A stretch of DNA of 54,895 bases. It comes from Pigoraptor vietnamica (lineage: Eukaryota > Opisthokonta > Filasterea). A model generated the notes under the pieces. The model did not search any database. It was not told the DNA's origin and saw only the letters and a program-made list of their open reading frames with translations. Positions 38,362 to 46,360 of this stretch are shown piece by piece. Each line of letters begins with the position of its first letter. The stretch's first letter is position 1. Location of the stretch: assembly GCA_943704525.1 (NCBI GenBank), contig CALSCQ010002252.1, positions 35,001 through 89,895 of the forward strand, in the 5' to 3' direction. Both the position numbers and the translations under genes were made by a program.

Positions 38362-41284
38362 ATGGGTCTCTGGACCTCATGCCGGCGCCTCTGCCCCTTT
38401 CGCCGGGTCCTCTTCCTGACGATCGCGGCCCTGCTTTCCGTCAATCTGCTCGCTCTCGTTTATATGCAATCGAGCACGACTGGGCCCGAAGCGCCGCGCG
38501 AACGTCCACCGATCGTCACAGTAGTGATACGAGACTTTATGTTCTTTCGCAACAACGTGCCCGGGACTGTCGCTGCCGTGAATCGCGCGCTTCCGTCGGC
38601 GAAGGTTCTTGTGGTCTCGCGCGGCGTGCCCTATCCTCCCATTGAGCTTTCGCAGGGGAGCCATGCGACGGTGGGTGATAGTCGTGGGTGCGTCAAACAG
38701 CACGTGGACCACTGAACGGCTTCTGTCGTAGATTTTGTTGCTTGCGCTCGCACCCCCGAGTGTGTTCTCAATGCGTTCGCGCGGGATGACATTCGCGTCG
38801 CCTACTACTGTACTTGGGTCACTGCCTCATCGTGTCTCACTGTAGCTCGTAAAATTCGACTGAGCAGTTTGTCAATGTTGCGGTTGTTCCCGGCGACAAC
38901 CACACGCTGCACCGCGCGGAAACCTTCATCACGACGCCCTACACGCTCGTCCTTCCCGACAATGTCTTCCCGTCGAGCGACGCGGACGTTGTCGCTATGG
39001 TGAAGACGCTCGAGGCGCACGCAGGCGCGAGGGCGGCACACGCAGACAGGGGGGTTCGTATCGCCGCCGCACAGGTCGTGGCGGAGGGAGAGGACGGCCG
39101 TGGCGGCCATTCGGGCGCGCTCTGCAAGTGCCAAGCGATGGACTTTGACGTGAGGCGATGGACGCTGACGGTCAACTCTGCCCATGGCGCCGTGTTGCCG
39201 TCACCGGTGGTACGTGTTCGACCTAGCCCCAACCCCCCAAACTGCTTGCGTCTTTGTGTGTTGTGCTTGTTATTTAGGCTTGCCTCCTCTGTCTCAATGC
39301 GTCTTTCCGCTGTATGAGATTGCCTGATGTACAGGCGACTATGCACTGCTTGTTTCCTATTCATCCACTACTTAAATCCACAACTTTCCCTCTTCCATTC
39401 CGTTGCAGATCTGCGGCGCTGTGCGGTGTGCGACGTGCCTGCGCCAGGCGCCAATTCTTCTCGCCACGAGGGACCTCTTGGCACTCGATTGGGACGCGTA
39501 CGATAGGATGACGTCAGAGGCCATCTTTGCGCAGGCGTCCGCAAGGAATTGGAAGGTGTGCTCGTGTGCATGTGCATGCTTGCGTGCGCGTATGCGTGTG
39601 ATATATAGACTATGAGAGAGAGAGAGAGAGAGAGTGTGTGTGTGTGTGTGCGTATGTGTGCGTGTGTGATTACATGTGTGTGTGTGTGTGATTATACATG
39701 TGTGTGTGGTGTGCGCGTGTGTGTGAGCTCGTGAGGCCACACCGCGTCAAATGGTCACAGTATGTACGGTGCAAATGATGTGCGGCAAAGAGTGTGTCCT
39801 CATCGGCCCACATGCGCCGCCATTTGTCACACCAGGTCGCCTTGCACGAGTCCTCTTCGTTTGCGGCCGGCACACCGCTCTTCGACCACGACGAGCACCT
39901 TAAGTGGAAGGCCAACCGCGACTTTACGAACTCAAAACGCGCCATGAACGCACGTCTGGGCATCAAACTCGTTGTCGAAAGTTCCGGCGTGGGAGAGCCC
40001 AAGCGCGAGTTCTTTGGTACGTGTGCGCAGGGTGGATTTCGCTCTGCATTCAGGAGAAGAGGAAGAGTCGAACGTCAATGACATGGTTGATAGAGAGGGA
40101 CTGTCAATCGTTGCGTTGACGCACCCGCGCCTCCCTCTCGCGTGCCAGGCTGCAATCGGAAGGGCCCGCGGTGCTTTGGGACTGTCGTCGATGATGCGCC
40201 GGAATTTCTGTATGCGGGAAGGTGGGAGTTGCACGCAGAATGCGCAGCGCACACACTGCCGGCGCAACACACGCAGACCCACGTACCCACACTGCTGTGC
40301 GTTCTTTTGCCAGTCGCACTCACGTCGGCTGATCTCAGGTGGACGCCTCCGTGCTGCCTGCACGCCATCCGCACGACGGGACGGCATGTGATCAACCGCC
40401 TGGAGGAGGCCGGAGTGCGCTACTGGCTTGAGGGTGGCACATTGCTCGGAGCGATGCGCAGCGGCGACATCATCCCTTGGGTGTGTGGCGCTCCGAAGAC
40501 GTGCACATGTAACGCAACGAAGAACACGTGTGCAATGTGTTATGCGAAGAGCACCTGTGTGTCTTCTCCCATGCGCAGCGTAGACTGGCACGCCTGTCGC
40601 TTGGTGTGCGTGCGTCCTGGATATTTGCTGTTGGATGCGAGTTTGATCAATCGCCGCACTCACGTCGCAGGATTACGACATGGACATTGGCATTTTCGAG
40701 GACGACATTGCCCGCCTCCCCGAATTGGCCGCCGTGCGCAAGCTCGCAAAGGGCGGAACGAAGACGTTCGACGGCTTTGTGTGGGAGAACGCGCGCGAGG
40801 GCGCGTTTTTCCGCGTGCAGTACAGCGAGGCGAACCACCTCCACGTGGACCTGTGGCCGTTCCGGGAGCGCGCGAGTGACGGCATGATGACGAAGGACAC
40901 GTGGATGGCGACGCATCGGCAGGACATGGAGTTCCCGTCGCACTTTTTGAAGCCGCTGCACCGGATGGGTGGGTGTGGTGCTCGTGCGGCTGTTTGTTGT
41001 GCCCATCCTTCTCCCTTTTATCCTCTGGGTTGCTGCCGTTCCTTGAATCTCTGTGGGAGAGTCCCAAAACTCGTGGCGTCAGCATGATACACACGAATGT
41101 TCTTGAGGGTCGCGGTGAATTCGCTGGACGCTGACTTCATGCTGTTGTCCGCTCGGCAGAGTTCATCGGGATTGAGGTGTCCGTGCCGAACAACGCGCGC
41201 GCCTTTCTCGAGCTCAAGTTTGGCCCTGGCGTCATTGAGAATCCGCGCTTTCCCGGCGGCGCCGAGCACATCAGCACTGGCTGA
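38362..41284 (+). CDS. FKRP: fukutin-related protein homologue (LicD-type ribitol-phosphate transferase family)
   Basis: In animals FKRP adds a second ribitol-5-phosphate from CDP-ribitol to the O-mannosyl glycan of alpha-dystroglycan in the Golgi. Exons 38362-38670, 38868-39209, 39409-39555, 39836-40016, 40149-40221, 40339-40480, 40671-40968 and 41160-41284 give 538 aa (human about 495). A short basic N-terminus plus one hydrophobic segment (about 15-35) makes a type II signal anchor. A divergent stem domain follows. The catalytic part is strongly FKRP-like: [21 protein letters not shown], then the acidic DYDMD cluster (399-403), [19 protein letters not shown] and [10 protein letters not shown]. 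It continues with [17 protein letters not shown] and a terminal [13 protein letters not shown]. The order of landmarks and the C-terminus match FKRP rather than generic LicD or fukutin. It is convergent with the LARGE-like gene, 280 bp between stops. Acceptor and donor sugar in this organism are unknown. Confidence 0.9.
39614..39725 (+). repeat. (GA)n-(GT)n compound microsatellite in FKRP-like intron 3
   Basis: About 20 bp of GA repeats running into some 90 bp of GT-rich repeats on the sense strand, shortly after the exon 3 donor. Confidence 0.95.
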
Positions 41285-41564
41285 GAGGGCTCCTTCGCAG
41301 CCGAAGGCAGTACTCTTCCTACTCCAGCCCGAGCGCTCGTGCGGACGCCCACGTTCCTCTTACGGCCACCATATCTTCTCGCATAACTGGGATTGCGCAC
41401 GCGACCCATGTGGGCTTGATGCTCATCGGCCGGCCAGGTGCAAGGCCGAGACGACACAACGAGAAACGACGCGAATACGGACGAGATGGGCACTAGTTTG
41501 AGCGCTGTTCATTAGCACATGCGCACACAAGAGAATTCTTTCCTTCTCACGGACGATGCGGGCG
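41285..41564. other. intergenic between convergent FKRP-like and LARGE-like genes
   Basis: 280 bp holding both 3' ends. No additional gene or structured element recognised. Confidence 0.5.
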
Positions 41565-44500
41565 TTACGACTTGCGCCCCATCTCTTCCATAAACTCCTT
41601 CTTGAGTCTGGCCAAACACATCTGTGCGCACGTGGCCGTGATGAGGAGGTGAATGGTTGATGAGCATCCAGCACGCGGAGGTGAGGACAATCCAACGAGA
41701 GGACGATAAAGACGAACGGAAACAACGGAGACAAGGCGCAGAAGGGGAGGGTTAACGGAGACAAGGCGCAGAGGGGGAGAAAGACCCCGCAGCGCACGCG
41801 CACAGTACGACGGAGCGGAACGGCCGGCACACGCACCCTGTAGAGCTGGTTCTTCCTGAACTTGCGGATGTCGAGCGAAGGGCTGTGCGGCATGTGCACA
41901 ATAAAGCCCTCCGGAATGACGACAAACTCATAGCCCTTTTTCGAGAGCTCGTAAATGTGCGAGACTTTGTTCCAGCCAAAGCCCACAAACCGCGTGTCGT
42001 ACCTGCCACACCGCCAACAATAAGCCATCAAGTCATCGCGATTCACAGCTCGGCAACCTGACATGATGTTGTCCCACAACACACTACCCACACGCACCCG
42101 TCCCCATGCAGGAACTCACCTCTGCACGTCGCGGCGCACCACAATGTACGGCTCAAAATCCGGCGCCCACTGGATCGTGTACGGGCGCGACGCCGTTCGC
42201 CACCGGTCAAAGTCGGTCGGCGCGTGCCCCTGCGGCCACTCGTTGAAGCGGAAGGTCGTGACGTCCCGCGTCTCGACCATTTTGAAAAGATCCGCCTTTG
42301 ACGCGGGCATCGCAAACTTGTACTTGAACGTCTCGAACGCAGGGACCACCAGCGCCTTCTGACCCTCCGCCATGCCCGTGCTGGCGATTGTGGCTCTGCA
42401 GGGGACGAGGGGTTTATCAGGCGAGAGGGCACCGCGACAAAACCGAGAGACACTGCCACAACACACAACAAGACATGAGGGCACGGACGTGCCCTCACCG
42501 CAGCGTGCTGTAGAGGTCCTTTGTCGGGAGAAAGTCAATGTCGACGAGGAAGGCGAAGGGTGTCCGGACTTCGTCGAGGGCGACGTTGCGCAGGTAATTG
42601 ATGGGAAAGAAAATCTGCCGAGATGGCGGAGGATGGGCGTCAGCCATCCGGCAACCGTTCGTCCAACTGAGAATTGACCACGCGCACGCTGTACCACTCT
42701 CCGCTTGTGGAAGTCCGTGACGTTTCAGCGCATGCACATCACTCAATTCGACACGTGCCAACGCGCCGCACAAGCTGCCACCAACCCACCCCCTCCACGT
42801 AGATGAAGTGATAGCCAATATTCTTCCGCGCGGACAGCGTAGGCGAGCTCTCGATGTATGTGCTCACTTGCGCCGCATCTGCGTCAGTGAGGTAGATCGA
42901 GAGCGACATGGGACCTGCACGTGCCACGCGAGCAGAGTATGCGTTAGAGAGACGAGCGCACGGCCGATGCCTTTGTTGCAAGAACAATGTCGCGACAGAG
43001 CACTCGAGAACGCCAACACACCTTCCCAGTGCTCTGCAAGCGGCTCCAGCATCACCAGGCGGTCCAGCGAGAACTGGGTAACGAGCGTTACGTCGTCGTT
43101 CGATTGCTGTCGACATCAAAGTGCCGGTGAGTGACATATACCGCGAACACGGCACGCGCATAAGACTGAACGCACACAAGCCACGCAGTTCCTGCACACG
43201 CCACGTAAGGTTACAAACGCACCGGCGGCTCTTCGTAGTCCTCGTAATAGAGGTGCGTGCGGTAGCGCGTGTCGGCGGCCTTGCGAAACTCGATGCATTC
43301 GTCGTACACCGTGTTTTCCTTCTCCGCCCCGAAGCGGGGGCACGCGAGCAGCTCACGGCGGAGAAGCCCGCCATCGTACTGATGGAGCGCAACAGGAAAC
43401 CACCGTGAGAATGGGGTGCTGATGCTCGTACAGCTTGTCACACACGCCCGCACGTCCCGCACGCCCGCACACACGCACACCAACAATTACACAGAACGCT
43501 CACCTGCGAGAAAGTCGCGACAAACAGGCGGAAGAACTCAATGTTCTTGTTGGCGACGGCAGTCTTCTTGGGCGAGTTCCAGTGCACCACTCCAATCTGC
43601 AGCAAACAAGCACACAAGAGCATTCACACACACTGTTGAGCCGGAGCGAGCAACGCACAAGACACCACAAAGCACATAAAACGCCTGCACCCCACCGTGC
43701 CACGCTCCCTGTAGCACACGTCGGCGAGAGAGTTGTCGCTGAGCTGGATGTTCCACTCGCACGGCAGGCGATACACGATGCGCGGGTTCTCCTTGATGAC
43801 GGCGTTGATGACGTCCTGGTCCGCGAGGTGCGTGATCTTCCGCCCCGGTTCGCGCTGCTCGAGCTCCGCGCGCGCAGTCTCCAGCCACACGCGGTCCCAC
43901 TTCATTTTGCGCATGCGACCGAGATCCATGAGCATGACGCCCGTGTTGAACCCGACGCCCACAGCCGGCCACGGGTGGCTCGACTTGAGCTTGCCCAGGT
44001 ACCACTCGCTCTGGTTCTCCACCAGACCCAGCACCTGATCCGGCTCGAAGCGCGAAAAGTGCTCCCACAGCTTCGCAATGTCCGCGCCAAAGACGACGTC
44101 GGTATCGAGCGTGATGAGGCGTTCGACGTCCGGCAGCGCGACCTCTAGCGTCAGCTTGAGCAACCCGAACACTCCAGAATAGTGGGACGTGGGAATCGTC
44201 GCCACTCGGTTGCGGTAATCGTCTGTCTTGTAATACGACGCCGTTACATGAGGGACGTGCCACGTCGCAAATAGCACGCGCAAGATGCGCTCGGACGCAT
44301 CGTCGACGAGCAGGTGCAAGTGCAGCGGGTGTTGGCGATAGAAGAGGATCGACTTTAGCACAGCCACCACCGATCTGCAGTGCGGTGCGTCAGCATCGCC
44401 GTTGTCACACGAGCATCCCAAGGGGTAGCGCGACATGAAAACACACGGGCTTGAACAACGCATACACACTGGCCATCAGCGCAACTATTCTCCCTCGCTC

Positions 44501-44787
44501 ACCGGCTCGACTTGTACCCAGCACAGACGATGGCGATGTGAATCGTGTCACAGCGCCCCAGCATTCCGTCGCCGTTTTCGCCGTTTGCGTCCGCGCACTG
44601 CACAGCACCCGACCCTGCGCAAATTCCACGCAATCAGGCAAAATACCCACGACGCAGTCACTTTACAAGGGGGATCGTCACCTCGCGTTGTTCTTGGGAG
44701 GCCATCTTTTTGGTAGAGTGTAAACGCAACAACGACACCGACCACAACCGCCAGCCCAAGCCTTCTACAAAGGGCGGTCGTCCGCAT
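41565..44787 (-). CDS. LARGE1: LARGE-like bifunctional xylosyl-/glucuronyltransferase (GT8 + GT49)
   Basis: In animals LARGE polymerises matriglycan (xylose-glucuronic acid repeats) on alpha-dystroglycan in the Golgi. Eleven exons: 44787-44682, 44614-44503, 44374-43696, 43596-43504, 43378-43223, 43106-43022, 42914-42790, 42614-42499, 42395-42120, 42002-41837 and 41621-41565, predicting 656 aa (human LARGE1 about 756). A basic N-terminus and hydrophobic segment (about 11-22) form a type II anchor. The GT8 domain (about 60-330) has [20 protein letters not shown], the DxD LDTD at 163-165, [12 protein letters not shown] and [12 protein letters not shown]. The GT49 domain (about 395-650) has [13 protein letters not shown], the DxD VDID at 477-479, [29 protein letters not shown] and [13 protein letters not shown]. 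Both metal motifs are intact, so both activities may be kept. A start at 44820 is also possible. Stop-to-stop distance to the FKRP-like gene is 280 bp. Confidence 0.93.
41723..41779. repeat. 26-bp direct duplication in LARGE-like intron 10
   Basis: AACGGAGACAAGGCGCAG followed by A/G-rich sequence occurs at 41723-41748 and again at 41754-41779, differing by one base, in the intron before the last exon. Confidence 0.9.
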
Positions 44788-45418
44788 GCTGACCGTGCGA
44801 ATAGGGGCGCCGGCACCCACGAGAGCACAAAGGTATTACCGCATGTGACAGATTAGCCACGGTTGGCTGCTGCGGTAACTGCGGACTCGTGCTCAACAGC
44901 GGGAGAGTATGAGAGCTATCAATAAATGAGAATGGGAACCGCTTCTCACGTGTGCATGTAGCCCAATGAGAGCAGTGAGTGCAGCTCAAGTCGACGGGTT
45001 GAAATCGCCGATTCGCGTCGGTGCCGGTAGAAGGGTGTGTGGAATAGAAGCCGCAGCTGTCAACCCACATGACATGTGGACACCGAGTATTATATTGAAA
45101 CACCCTCAAAACTGGCCCCATTTCAGACGTTTTCAATTCCGATGTATAGTAACATGATACTAAACTGAGACATAAAATACCATCATTTACTTATATGAAG
45201 AATGGGGAAATATTGTACTTTGTATAGAGATTATCTGACATCAAAATCCCAAAATGGCTACAAAGCGATGACGCTAGCCCCCTTGTTCTCACACACACCC
45301 TCGCATAGCGACAGCTGGGAGCGCACACCTGCGTGCACACGTGCGACACTCTATTAAGTCGCCCCCACATTCAAACCTTCTCTACAGTGTGTCCCAGAGA
45401 CACTGTGAAACTCCAAAC
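44788..45418. promoter_or_regulatory. divergent intergenic region, LARGE-like / cystatin
   Basis: About 630 bp between divergent starts. The middle part (about 45080-45270) is markedly A+T-rich compared with its surroundings. A TATTAAG-like element near 45352 lies about 65 bp upstream of the cystatin ATG and might serve as a core promoter element, but this is only a suggestion. Confidence 0.4.
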
Positions 45419-46360
45419 ATGCGCACCGCCATTCTCACTCTCGCCGTCGCCGCGGCGCTCGTCGTGGCCTCGGCCGACGCGTTCCGCGCCGGCTCTCCGC
45501 GTCCCAAGGGATTCGGCACGCACCGCGGCGAACGCGGCATTGTCGGTGCTCCGTCGGAGATTCCCACAGACAGCGCCGATCTGTCGCCACTGTTGGAGTT
45601 TGTGGTGATGCAGATGAACCGCGAAAGCAATTCGCTTATGAAAATGGTCCCCGTGAAGATTGTCTCGGCGAGCAAGCAGGTCGTCGCAGGCCTCCTCTAC
45701 AAGATTACGTTCACCGCGGGCCTCTCGCGCTCGTGCTTGAAGGACGACCGCCTGTCGACCGTCGAGGAGTGCCCCGTGGGCGACGTGCAACAGTACACGG
45801 CCGACGTGCTCGTGCAGGCGTGGGCCAAGGAGGCGCCCGTCAAAGTCGTGCGCATCACGCCGAACCACGAAGCCGTTCCCGACGGTAGCGTCCCTGGCGG
45901 CGAGCTCCCTGTCGACGTCTATTCGGACGACGCGGCACAAGATGCGCTCGAGTTTGCGCGCAAGACGGCCGAGACGAACGTGGCTGCGACGGCGCCCGCG
46001 CTGCGCGTGACGGTCACCAAGGTGTTGTCTGCGACGAAGCAGCTCGTGAACGGGCTCGTGTACGACTTTGAGTTCCTCGCAAACGTGCGCGCGGAAGGCA
46101 GCAACGCCGCGGGTGCGACCGAGCGCATCAGCGCGCGCGTGCACCAGGCCCTCGGGGAGAGCCGCCCGCTGAACATTCTCGACATTGAGCGCCACCCAGA
46201 GTGCGGCACGGGCGTGCTGGGCCTCGCCGAGTTCGTCGGTGCCGATTTCGTTGCGGATGGCGAGGGAGCGCGTTGCGTGTCGGGCGAATACGCCGGCTGT
46301 GCCACGCCGTTTGCCTTTGCGTCTGTCGAAGACTGCAAGGTGTCCGCGGACAACGCGTAG
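45419..46360 (+). CDS. secreted double-domain cystatin-like cysteine protease inhibitor, intronless
   Basis: Predicted inhibitor of papain-like cysteine proteases, secreted or delivered to the endolysosomal system. 313 aa in a single exon. The first ~20 residues are a classical signal peptide with a hydrophobic core (LTLAVAAALVVASADA). Two cystatin repeats follow. The first has a GAPSEI start, which resembles the N-terminal trunk, and the QxVxG loop as QVVAG in SKQVVAGLLYKITF. The second has the matching loop QLVNG in TKQLVNGLVYDFEF. Cysteines cluster late in each repeat, as expected for disulphides of type 2-like cystatins. The ATG after the AT-rich upstream region was taken as start; the frame is open 26 codons upstream without signal-peptide character. 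Target proteases cannot be inferred. Confidence 0.85.
   Translation: MRTAILTLAVAAALVVASADAFRAGSPRPKGFGTHRGERGIVGAPSEIPTDSADLSPLLEFVVMQMNRESNSLMKMVPVKIVSASKQVVAGLLYKITFTAGLSRSCLKDDRLSTVEECPVGDVQQYTADVLVQAWAKEAPVKVVRITPNHEAVPDGSVPGGELPVDVYSDDAAQDALEFARKTAETNVAATAPALRVTVTKVLSATKQLVNGLVYDFEFLANVRAEGSNAAGATERISARVHQALGESRPLNILDIERHPECGTGVLGLAEFVGADFVADGEGARCVSGEYAGCATPFAFASVEDCKVSADNA

Follow-up and report, generated by a model that had tools for sequence, protein, structure and literature searches.

A tail-to-tail FKRP-LARGE gene pair and a putative ribitol-phosphate pathway in the filasterean Pigoraptor vietnamica

The convergent FKRP and LARGE genes

The stretch of DNA analyzed here (the window) comprises 54,895 nucleotides of the filasterean Pigoraptor vietnamica (assembly GCA_943704525.1, contig CALSCQ010002252.1, positions 35,001 to 89,895; 60% G+C) and harbors two genes whose predicted products resemble FKRP and LARGE, enzymes of the core M3 pathway of animals. 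The FKRP gene (38362-41284, plus strand) consists of nine exons and encodes a protein of 569 amino acids with an N-terminal hydrophobic anchor, a stem domain and a LicD catalytic domain, while the LARGE gene (44787-41565, minus strand) consists of 11 exons and specifies a protein of 656 amino acids in which an anchor is followed by a GT8 and then a GT49 domain. The FKRP stop codon terminates at 41284 and the LARGE stop codon at 41565, leaving a spacer of 280 base pairs (bp) between the stops, and the 18 introns predicted for the pair (47-280 bp) are without exception of the GT-AG type. The tail-to-tail arrangement of two multi-exon genes outlined in a preliminary description of this DNA was confirmed in its positions, introns and spacer, and the adjacency itself is real. 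Confidence in the FKRP model is lowest for the N-terminal portion of the stem, where the exon 2/3 junction (38817/38865) features a weak donor and was picked by reading frame. The features of the locus are listed below, with the basis of each assignment in parentheses.

38362..38674, plus strand: FKRP exon 1, cytoplasmic tail, signal anchor and start of the stem (hydrophobic stretch at residues 16-34)
38732..38817, plus strand: FKRP exon 2, with an uncertain boundary toward exon 3 (reading frame choice)
38865..39209, plus strand: FKRP exon 3, stem domain (FKRP_N match)
39409..39555, plus strand: FKRP exon 4, stem domain (match to human FKRP in PDB)
39836..40016, plus strand: FKRP exon 5, stem end with the equivalents of human H252 and K256 (residue comparison, PMC6965139, excerpt)
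40149..40221, plus strand: FKRP exon 6, first part of the zinc finger loop (residue comparison)
40339..40480, plus strand: FKRP exon 7, CC of the zinc finger; GGT replaces GGS of the hG[GS] motif (residue comparison)
40671..40968, plus strand: FKRP exon 8, with the catalytic DYDMD cluster, the third catalytic Asp and the ribitol-contacting loop (residue comparison)
41160..41284, plus strand: FKRP exon 9, C terminus and stop (match to human FKRP in PDB)
41285..41564, no strand: spacer of 280 bp between the stop codons (gene models)
41565..41621, minus strand: LARGE exon 11 and stop (gene model)
41837..42002, minus strand: LARGE exon 10, end of GT49 with the H708 equivalent (gene model, residue comparison)
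42120..42395, minus strand: LARGE exon 9, GT49 (gene model)
42499..42614, minus strand: LARGE exon 8, DID of GT49 (gene model, residue comparison)
42790..42914, minus strand: LARGE exon 7, GT49 (gene model)
43022..43106, minus strand: LARGE exon 6, start of GT49 (gene model)
43223..43378, minus strand: LARGE exon 5, linker (gene model)
43504..43596, minus strand: LARGE exon 4, GT8 with the H380 equivalent (gene model, residue comparison)
43696..44374, minus strand: LARGE exon 3, GT8 with DTD and the Q335 equivalent (gene model, residue comparison)
44503..44614, minus strand: LARGE exon 2 (gene model)
44682..44787, minus strand: LARGE exon 1, signal anchor (gene model)

The FKRP product was recognized by the Pfam families FKRP_N (4.8e-40) and LicD (2.7e-16), and human FKRP was the sole PDB sequence matched at an E-value of up to 1 (3.3e-101), with 169 of 343 alignment columns identical (49%). 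The LARGE product matched Glyco_transf_8 (1.4e-18) and Glyco_transf_49 (9.1e-50) in Pfam and LARGE1 in PDB (1.2e-227), sharing 323 of 612 alignment columns (53%) with human LARGE1. E-values of this order exclude chance similarity for both proteins, and each matches its human counterpart along the greater part of its length.

Residues with an assigned function are largely retained. In human FKRP, H252 and K256 contact the phosphate on O-mannose, R295 is an acceptor-phosphate residue, the loop formed by residues 433 to 437 contacts ribitol, and Q482, Y483, P484 and L488 help to enclose the donor (PMC6965139, excerpt). At 28 positions selected from those named in that excerpt (L488 lying past the human sequence compared), the window protein is identical to human FKRP at 24, including C289, C296, C317 and C318 of the C4 zinc finger, R295, H252 and K256, D360 together with the three catalytic Asp residues D362, D364 and D416, and, among the positions associated with donor closure, H435, Q437 and P484; substitutions occur at the remaining four (S346T, L433M, Q482R and Y483F). 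All seven LARGE1 active-site residues taken from the excerpt of PMC9746966 (D242, D244, Q335, H380, D563, D565 and H708, human LARGE1 numbering) are present in the window LARGE. Position 694, considered as a metal-binding histidine, is Glu in both the human and the window protein and lies outside these seven. The DYDMD cluster and the two DxD pairs, described earlier as intact, are located at FKRP residues 430-434 and at LARGE residues 163-165 (DTD) and 477-479 (DID), respectively.

Phylogenetic placement pointed in the same direction. In the genome, a draft of 32.5 Mb (megabases), five places with a LicD domain were found, the window FKRP included, and in a small tree of seven rows (the rows of FKTN, a sequence not drawn from a database, and of the gene on contig C794 being long and that of C572 short) the window protein paired with human FKRP at moderate support (87/81), rather than with FKTN or other LicD proteins. 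GT49 yielded 34 exon-level matches across the genome, and a 19-row tree, comprising the window LARGE, two human proteins and 16 other copies from the same genome, united the window protein with human LARGE1 at 100/98, apart from B4GAT1 and all other GT49 rows. The rows of that tree were joined from tblastn pieces, three being long or less than half filled, and a second copy on contig C1263 and the weakest GT49 matches were left out. Judged by their sequences, FKRP and LARGE of the window are orthologues of the animal enzymes, beyond loose family membership.

High similarity to human enzymes could also be the mark of an animal contaminant in the assembly, a reading we regard as extremely improbable: identities of 49-53% are far below those of a contaminating vertebrate, the G+C content near the pair (56-61%) is the same as that of other loci of this genome (0.56-0.64), and an ISPD gene on another contig, described below, shares the intron style of the pair (GT-AG introns of 91-327 bp versus 47-280 bp).

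Whether the adjacency of FKRP and LARGE represents a selected cluster, retained through joint function, is a separate matter. Two genes of the same pathway at a distance of 280 bp would be improbable for random genes, yet their convergent orientation rules out a shared promoter, the remaining pathway genes detected are located on contigs C177, C664, C1096, C1195, C473, C419 and C1249 (contigs too short to exclude wider linkage), and none of the eight frames with a Pfam family, among 16 other frames of the window that were scanned, belongs to the pathway; selection for linkage is, on this evidence, unlikely. The eight families are MutY-like, TRIP12-like, acetyltransferase, poly(A) polymerase-like, DENN, PDE, cystatin and Med23. 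The cystatin-domain protein adjoins LARGE (45278-46357, plus strand), is apparently secreted and on visual inspection features a second, weaker repeat.

Both families have further members in the genome. The four other LicD genes, on contigs C462, C794, C597 and C572 (L031-L034), appear from their open frames to encode short membrane-anchored proteins; they match the LicD family alone, neither an FKRP-type nor an FKTN-type stem being seen in the frames read, and are candidates for a first ribitol-phosphate transfer or for a phosphocholine-type transfer. The GT49 family is expanded, with gene pairs close together on contigs C390, C269 and C1263 (L005-L008, L025). A second LARGE-like gene is present as a single open frame (L029:2036-4171, G000:C229, plus strand), whose product shares 37% identity with the window LARGE over 544 columns. 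Its GT8 DTD is retained on visual inspection, while GT49 is recognized over the first 48 of 329 positions only and no DXD is visible; the protein may function as a xylosyltransferase only or as a scaffold partner.

An ISPD gene with a predicted short-chain dehydrogenase half

Whole-genome searches with the Pfam families IspD and ISPD_C returned nothing; these were false negatives, as the human ISPD protein, used later as a query, identified an ISPD gene on contig C177 through four collinear exon matches. The misses are likely to reflect short exons together with a C-terminal domain that is a short-chain dehydrogenase (SDR) rather than ISPD_C. The gene model (C177:3286-6882) comprises 14 exons and 470 residues, with 13 of 13 introns of the GT-AG type (91-327 bp) and a frame that is open throughout. 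Residues 16-245 constitute the cytidylyltransferase (IspD, 4.4e-38; PDB 4cvh, 1.8e-77), with 126 of 235 columns (54%) identical to human ISPD, while residues 248-470 form an intact SDR (adh_short, 3.9e-47), ISPD_C not being among the families listed. The translation of this second half contains TGGGRGIG, NNAG and SSS..YSATK, in line with the SDR hallmark motifs TGxxxGxG, NNAG and S..YxxxK. The YxxxK element is also given as an SDR motif in the excerpt of PMC10918830. Phase is maintained over the junction, placing both domains in one reading frame of the model, and the locus looks like a single gene in which a cytidylyltransferase is fused to an SDR.

Human ISPD differs in this respect, with ISPD_C (1.5e-70) at the place equivalent to the SDR and no dehydrogenase family listed, under filters that drop most weak matches. 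From domain position one might guess that human ISPD_C is a decayed SDR, although a profile comparison of the two (two rows versus one) lent no support to this notion (probability 0.6%, E 0.09, 40 columns).

A closer architectural parallel is found in bacteria, where CDP-ribitol (cytidine diphosphate ribitol) synthases of the Haemophilus Acs1 type join a cytidylyltransferase to a ribulose-5-phosphate reductase (PMC4873967, excerpt). Like the bifunctional enzymes of the Haemophilus influenzae Acs1/Bcs1 type, the Pigoraptor protein consists of an IspD-type cytidylyltransferase followed by an SDR; unlike them, it bears a much stronger resemblance to human ISPD in its N-terminal half, and its gene model contains 13 introns. 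This comparison draws on published activities for Acs1, the bacterial sequence compared being that of a Parabacteroides enzyme. A search of bacterial genome contigs with the fused ISPD gave a single match, to the SDR half. Plasmids yielded 2339 matching records, in 2 of which one place accounts for at least 80% of the protein length. In one of these two, Parabacteroides distasonis plasmid NZ_OY725790.1 (L059:4001-6282), the gene is annotated as a "bifunctional cytidylyltransferase/SDR family oxidoreductase" and directly precedes a LicD gene, a pair which is, by analogy, a bacterial counterpart of the relation between ISPD and FKRP; its product shares 26% identity with the Pigoraptor protein over 451 columns. 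From the domain content of the fused ISPD, we infer that it would produce CDP-ribitol from ribulose-5-phosphate as one enzyme.

Further pathway genes and the predicted glycan

For comparison, the animal core M3 set was taken to comprise POMT1/2, POMGNT2, B3GALNT2, POMK, ISPD/CRPPA, FKTN, FKRP, RXYLT1, B4GAT1 and LARGE1. PMT-family sequences were represented in the draft by 14 exon-level matches, which we assign to four genes distributed over three contigs. In PDB, the gene on C473 is matched best by a PMT of a class unnamed in its record and next by Pmt4, and the gene on C419 by Pmt2; Pmt4 and Pmt2 are what we take to be the classes of POMT1 and POMT2, respectively. A POMGNT2 gene on C1096 (queried as joined exon pieces) matched POMGNT2 in PDB at 2.3e-75 versus 0.005 for EOGT. 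RXYLT1 was detected on C664 (RXYLT1_C, 2.3e-47; RXYLT1_N, 2.4e-5), and B4GAT1 on C1195, where 93 residues show 67% identity to a human sequence not drawn from a database and two weaker pieces were also matched; in the GT49 tree this gene joined human B4GAT1 (that same sequence) at 98/96. A second GT61 protein (L043:49-1947, G000:C987, plus strand; a frame of 633 amino acids) does not appear POMGNT2-like on visual inspection.

The lack of a CDP-ribitol synthase or of O-mannosylation genes, which the preliminary description had named as possible objections to a ribitol-phosphate pathway, does not apply, as ISPD is present on C177 and PMT-family enzymes occur in the same genome. It is probable, given the orthology and the retained active sites, that FKRP and LARGE act late in an O-mannosyl pathway operating in the manner of animal core M3. 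In such a pathway, PMT/POMT enzymes would attach mannose to secreted or surface proteins in the endoplasmic reticulum, and POMGNT2 would extend the O-mannose. The fused ISPD-reductase would make ribitol-5-phosphate and activate it to CDP-ribitol, from which FKRP, possibly together with a second LicD protein, would transfer ribitol-phosphate. RXYLT1 would then add xylose and B4GAT1 glucuronate, and LARGE would polymerize xylose-glucuronate repeats. The product is most likely of the matriglycan type, i.e., a ribitol-phosphate-anchored xylose-glucuronate polymer on O-mannosylated proteins, with an acceptor predicted to be other than dystroglycan.

Three observations weigh against this reconstruction. 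First, a genome search for POMK gave three matches of 16-20 bits, which on visual inspection are other kinases, in what is a draft assembly; the query used matches POMK in PDB at 1.8e-171. As POMK in animals phosphorylates mannose and allows further elongation (PMC5142810, excerpt), its absence would leave a gap in the pathway. Second, FKTN was not found among the five LicD places, the best-scoring match among the four other LicD places being 26% over 100 amino acids; no whole-genome FKTN search was made, and an exon-split gene could escape detection. Third, at FKRP positions involved in donor closure, Q482 and Y483 are replaced by R and F, and L433 is replaced by M. Because neither POMK nor FKTN was found, the whole animal pathway is not claimed. 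The earlier suggestion that a ribitol-phosphate or matriglycan-like polymer may be made is thus partly supported: of the pathway members proposed for a search of the same genome, PMT/POMT, POMGNT2, RXYLT1, B4GAT1 and ISPD were identified, POMK was not found, and FKTN was not found among the LicD places.

The three weak POMK matches appear by eye to be two receptor tyrosine kinases and one receptor guanylyl cyclase. The former contain an RDLAARN catalytic loop and (L051, L053; contigs C645, C443) by eye have repetitive, beta-helix-like ectodomains. Receptor kinases and cyclases of this sort would fit a unicellular holozoan.

That POMK and FKTN were not found alongside POMGNT2, FKRP, RXYLT1, B4GAT1 and LARGE, with so poor a best match to FKTN, could instead be taken to signify that the orthologous enzymes operate without these two and generate a different product, in which one ribitol-phosphate (or glycerol-phosphate) unit serves as the bridge or the matriglycan-type polymer is attached through another linker. 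We consider such a product conceivable, though rather less probable than its opposite. The FKRP equivalents of H252 and K256, which contact the O-mannose phosphate, are retained, suggesting that the acceptor carries phosphomannose and making the missing kinase the chief gap. Moreover, the negative results for POMK and FKTN are themselves soft, since ISPD was missed by two Pfam searches and exon-split genes are easily overlooked. The draft also appears to be incomplete, as judged from EF-1alpha: among 18 family matches (three loci read), the sole one recognized as EF-1alpha is a first part situated at a contig end (C137). A better-scoring match of that family, on C1072, is by eye an Hbs1-like protein. 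A query of 80 nt from conserved 18S sequence gave no match in the draft.

Relation to known systems

The predicted matriglycan-type pathway resembles animal core M3 in its orthologues of FKRP, LARGE, RXYLT1, B4GAT1 and POMGNT2, its PMT-family enzymes, its ISPD cytidylyltransferase and the retained catalytic residues of FKRP and LARGE; points of difference are POMK and FKTN, neither of which was found, the intact reductase-type domain of ISPD, and the adjacency of FKRP and LARGE. The earlier view that the pathway is mostly metazoan is out of date, as choanoflagellates and Capsaspora possess POMK, B4GAT1 and LARGE1 according to Adams and Brancaccio (2015), who reported dystroglycan from animals only, their dystroglycan-modifying enzyme queries being SGK196/POMK, B4GAT1 and LARGE1 (PMC4582122, excerpt). 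A LARGE gene that predates animals is, therefore, not new. Compared with that set of pre-animal members of the same pathway, the Pigoraptor genome adds FKRP, RXYLT1, POMGNT2 and ISPD, whereas POMK was not found (comparison with the excerpt of PMC4582122). Among the best matches in the open-licence literature, no report was retrieved of FKRP, RXYLT1, POMGNT2 or a reductase-fused ISPD from protists or other non-animals, and what seems to be new, as far as that literature goes, is the ribitol branch, together with the fused CDP-ribitol synthase and the adjacent placement of FKRP and LARGE. The Goniomonas avonlea genome paper (PMC6260743) contains the term GT49 once.

A broader scenario may be entertained, albeit one that we regard as doubtful: a near-complete ribitol-phosphate/matriglycan pathway would have pre-dated dystroglycan outside animals, supplied by a self-sufficient bifunctional synthase of the bacterial Acs1 type; ISPD of animals would have descended from such an enzyme, its reductase half having decayed to ISPD_C, and the adjacency of FKRP and LARGE would mark either a remnant of a glycan gene cluster or a stage on the way to one. 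Decay of the reductase half, if true, would account for the separate reductase of animals; the mammalian reductase was called unknown in 2016 (PMC4873967, excerpt). The reported origin of dystroglycan, laminin and dystrophin within animals (PMC4582122, excerpt) raises the question of the ancestral role of matriglycan.

Matriglycan is the receptor glycan which is lost in dystroglycanopathies. With a protist that possesses much of the enzyme set, the function and the carrier of ribitol-phosphate/xylose-glucuronate polymers before the advent of basement membranes become testable, and the fused ISPD-reductase represents a candidate ancestral source of ribitol-5-phosphate.

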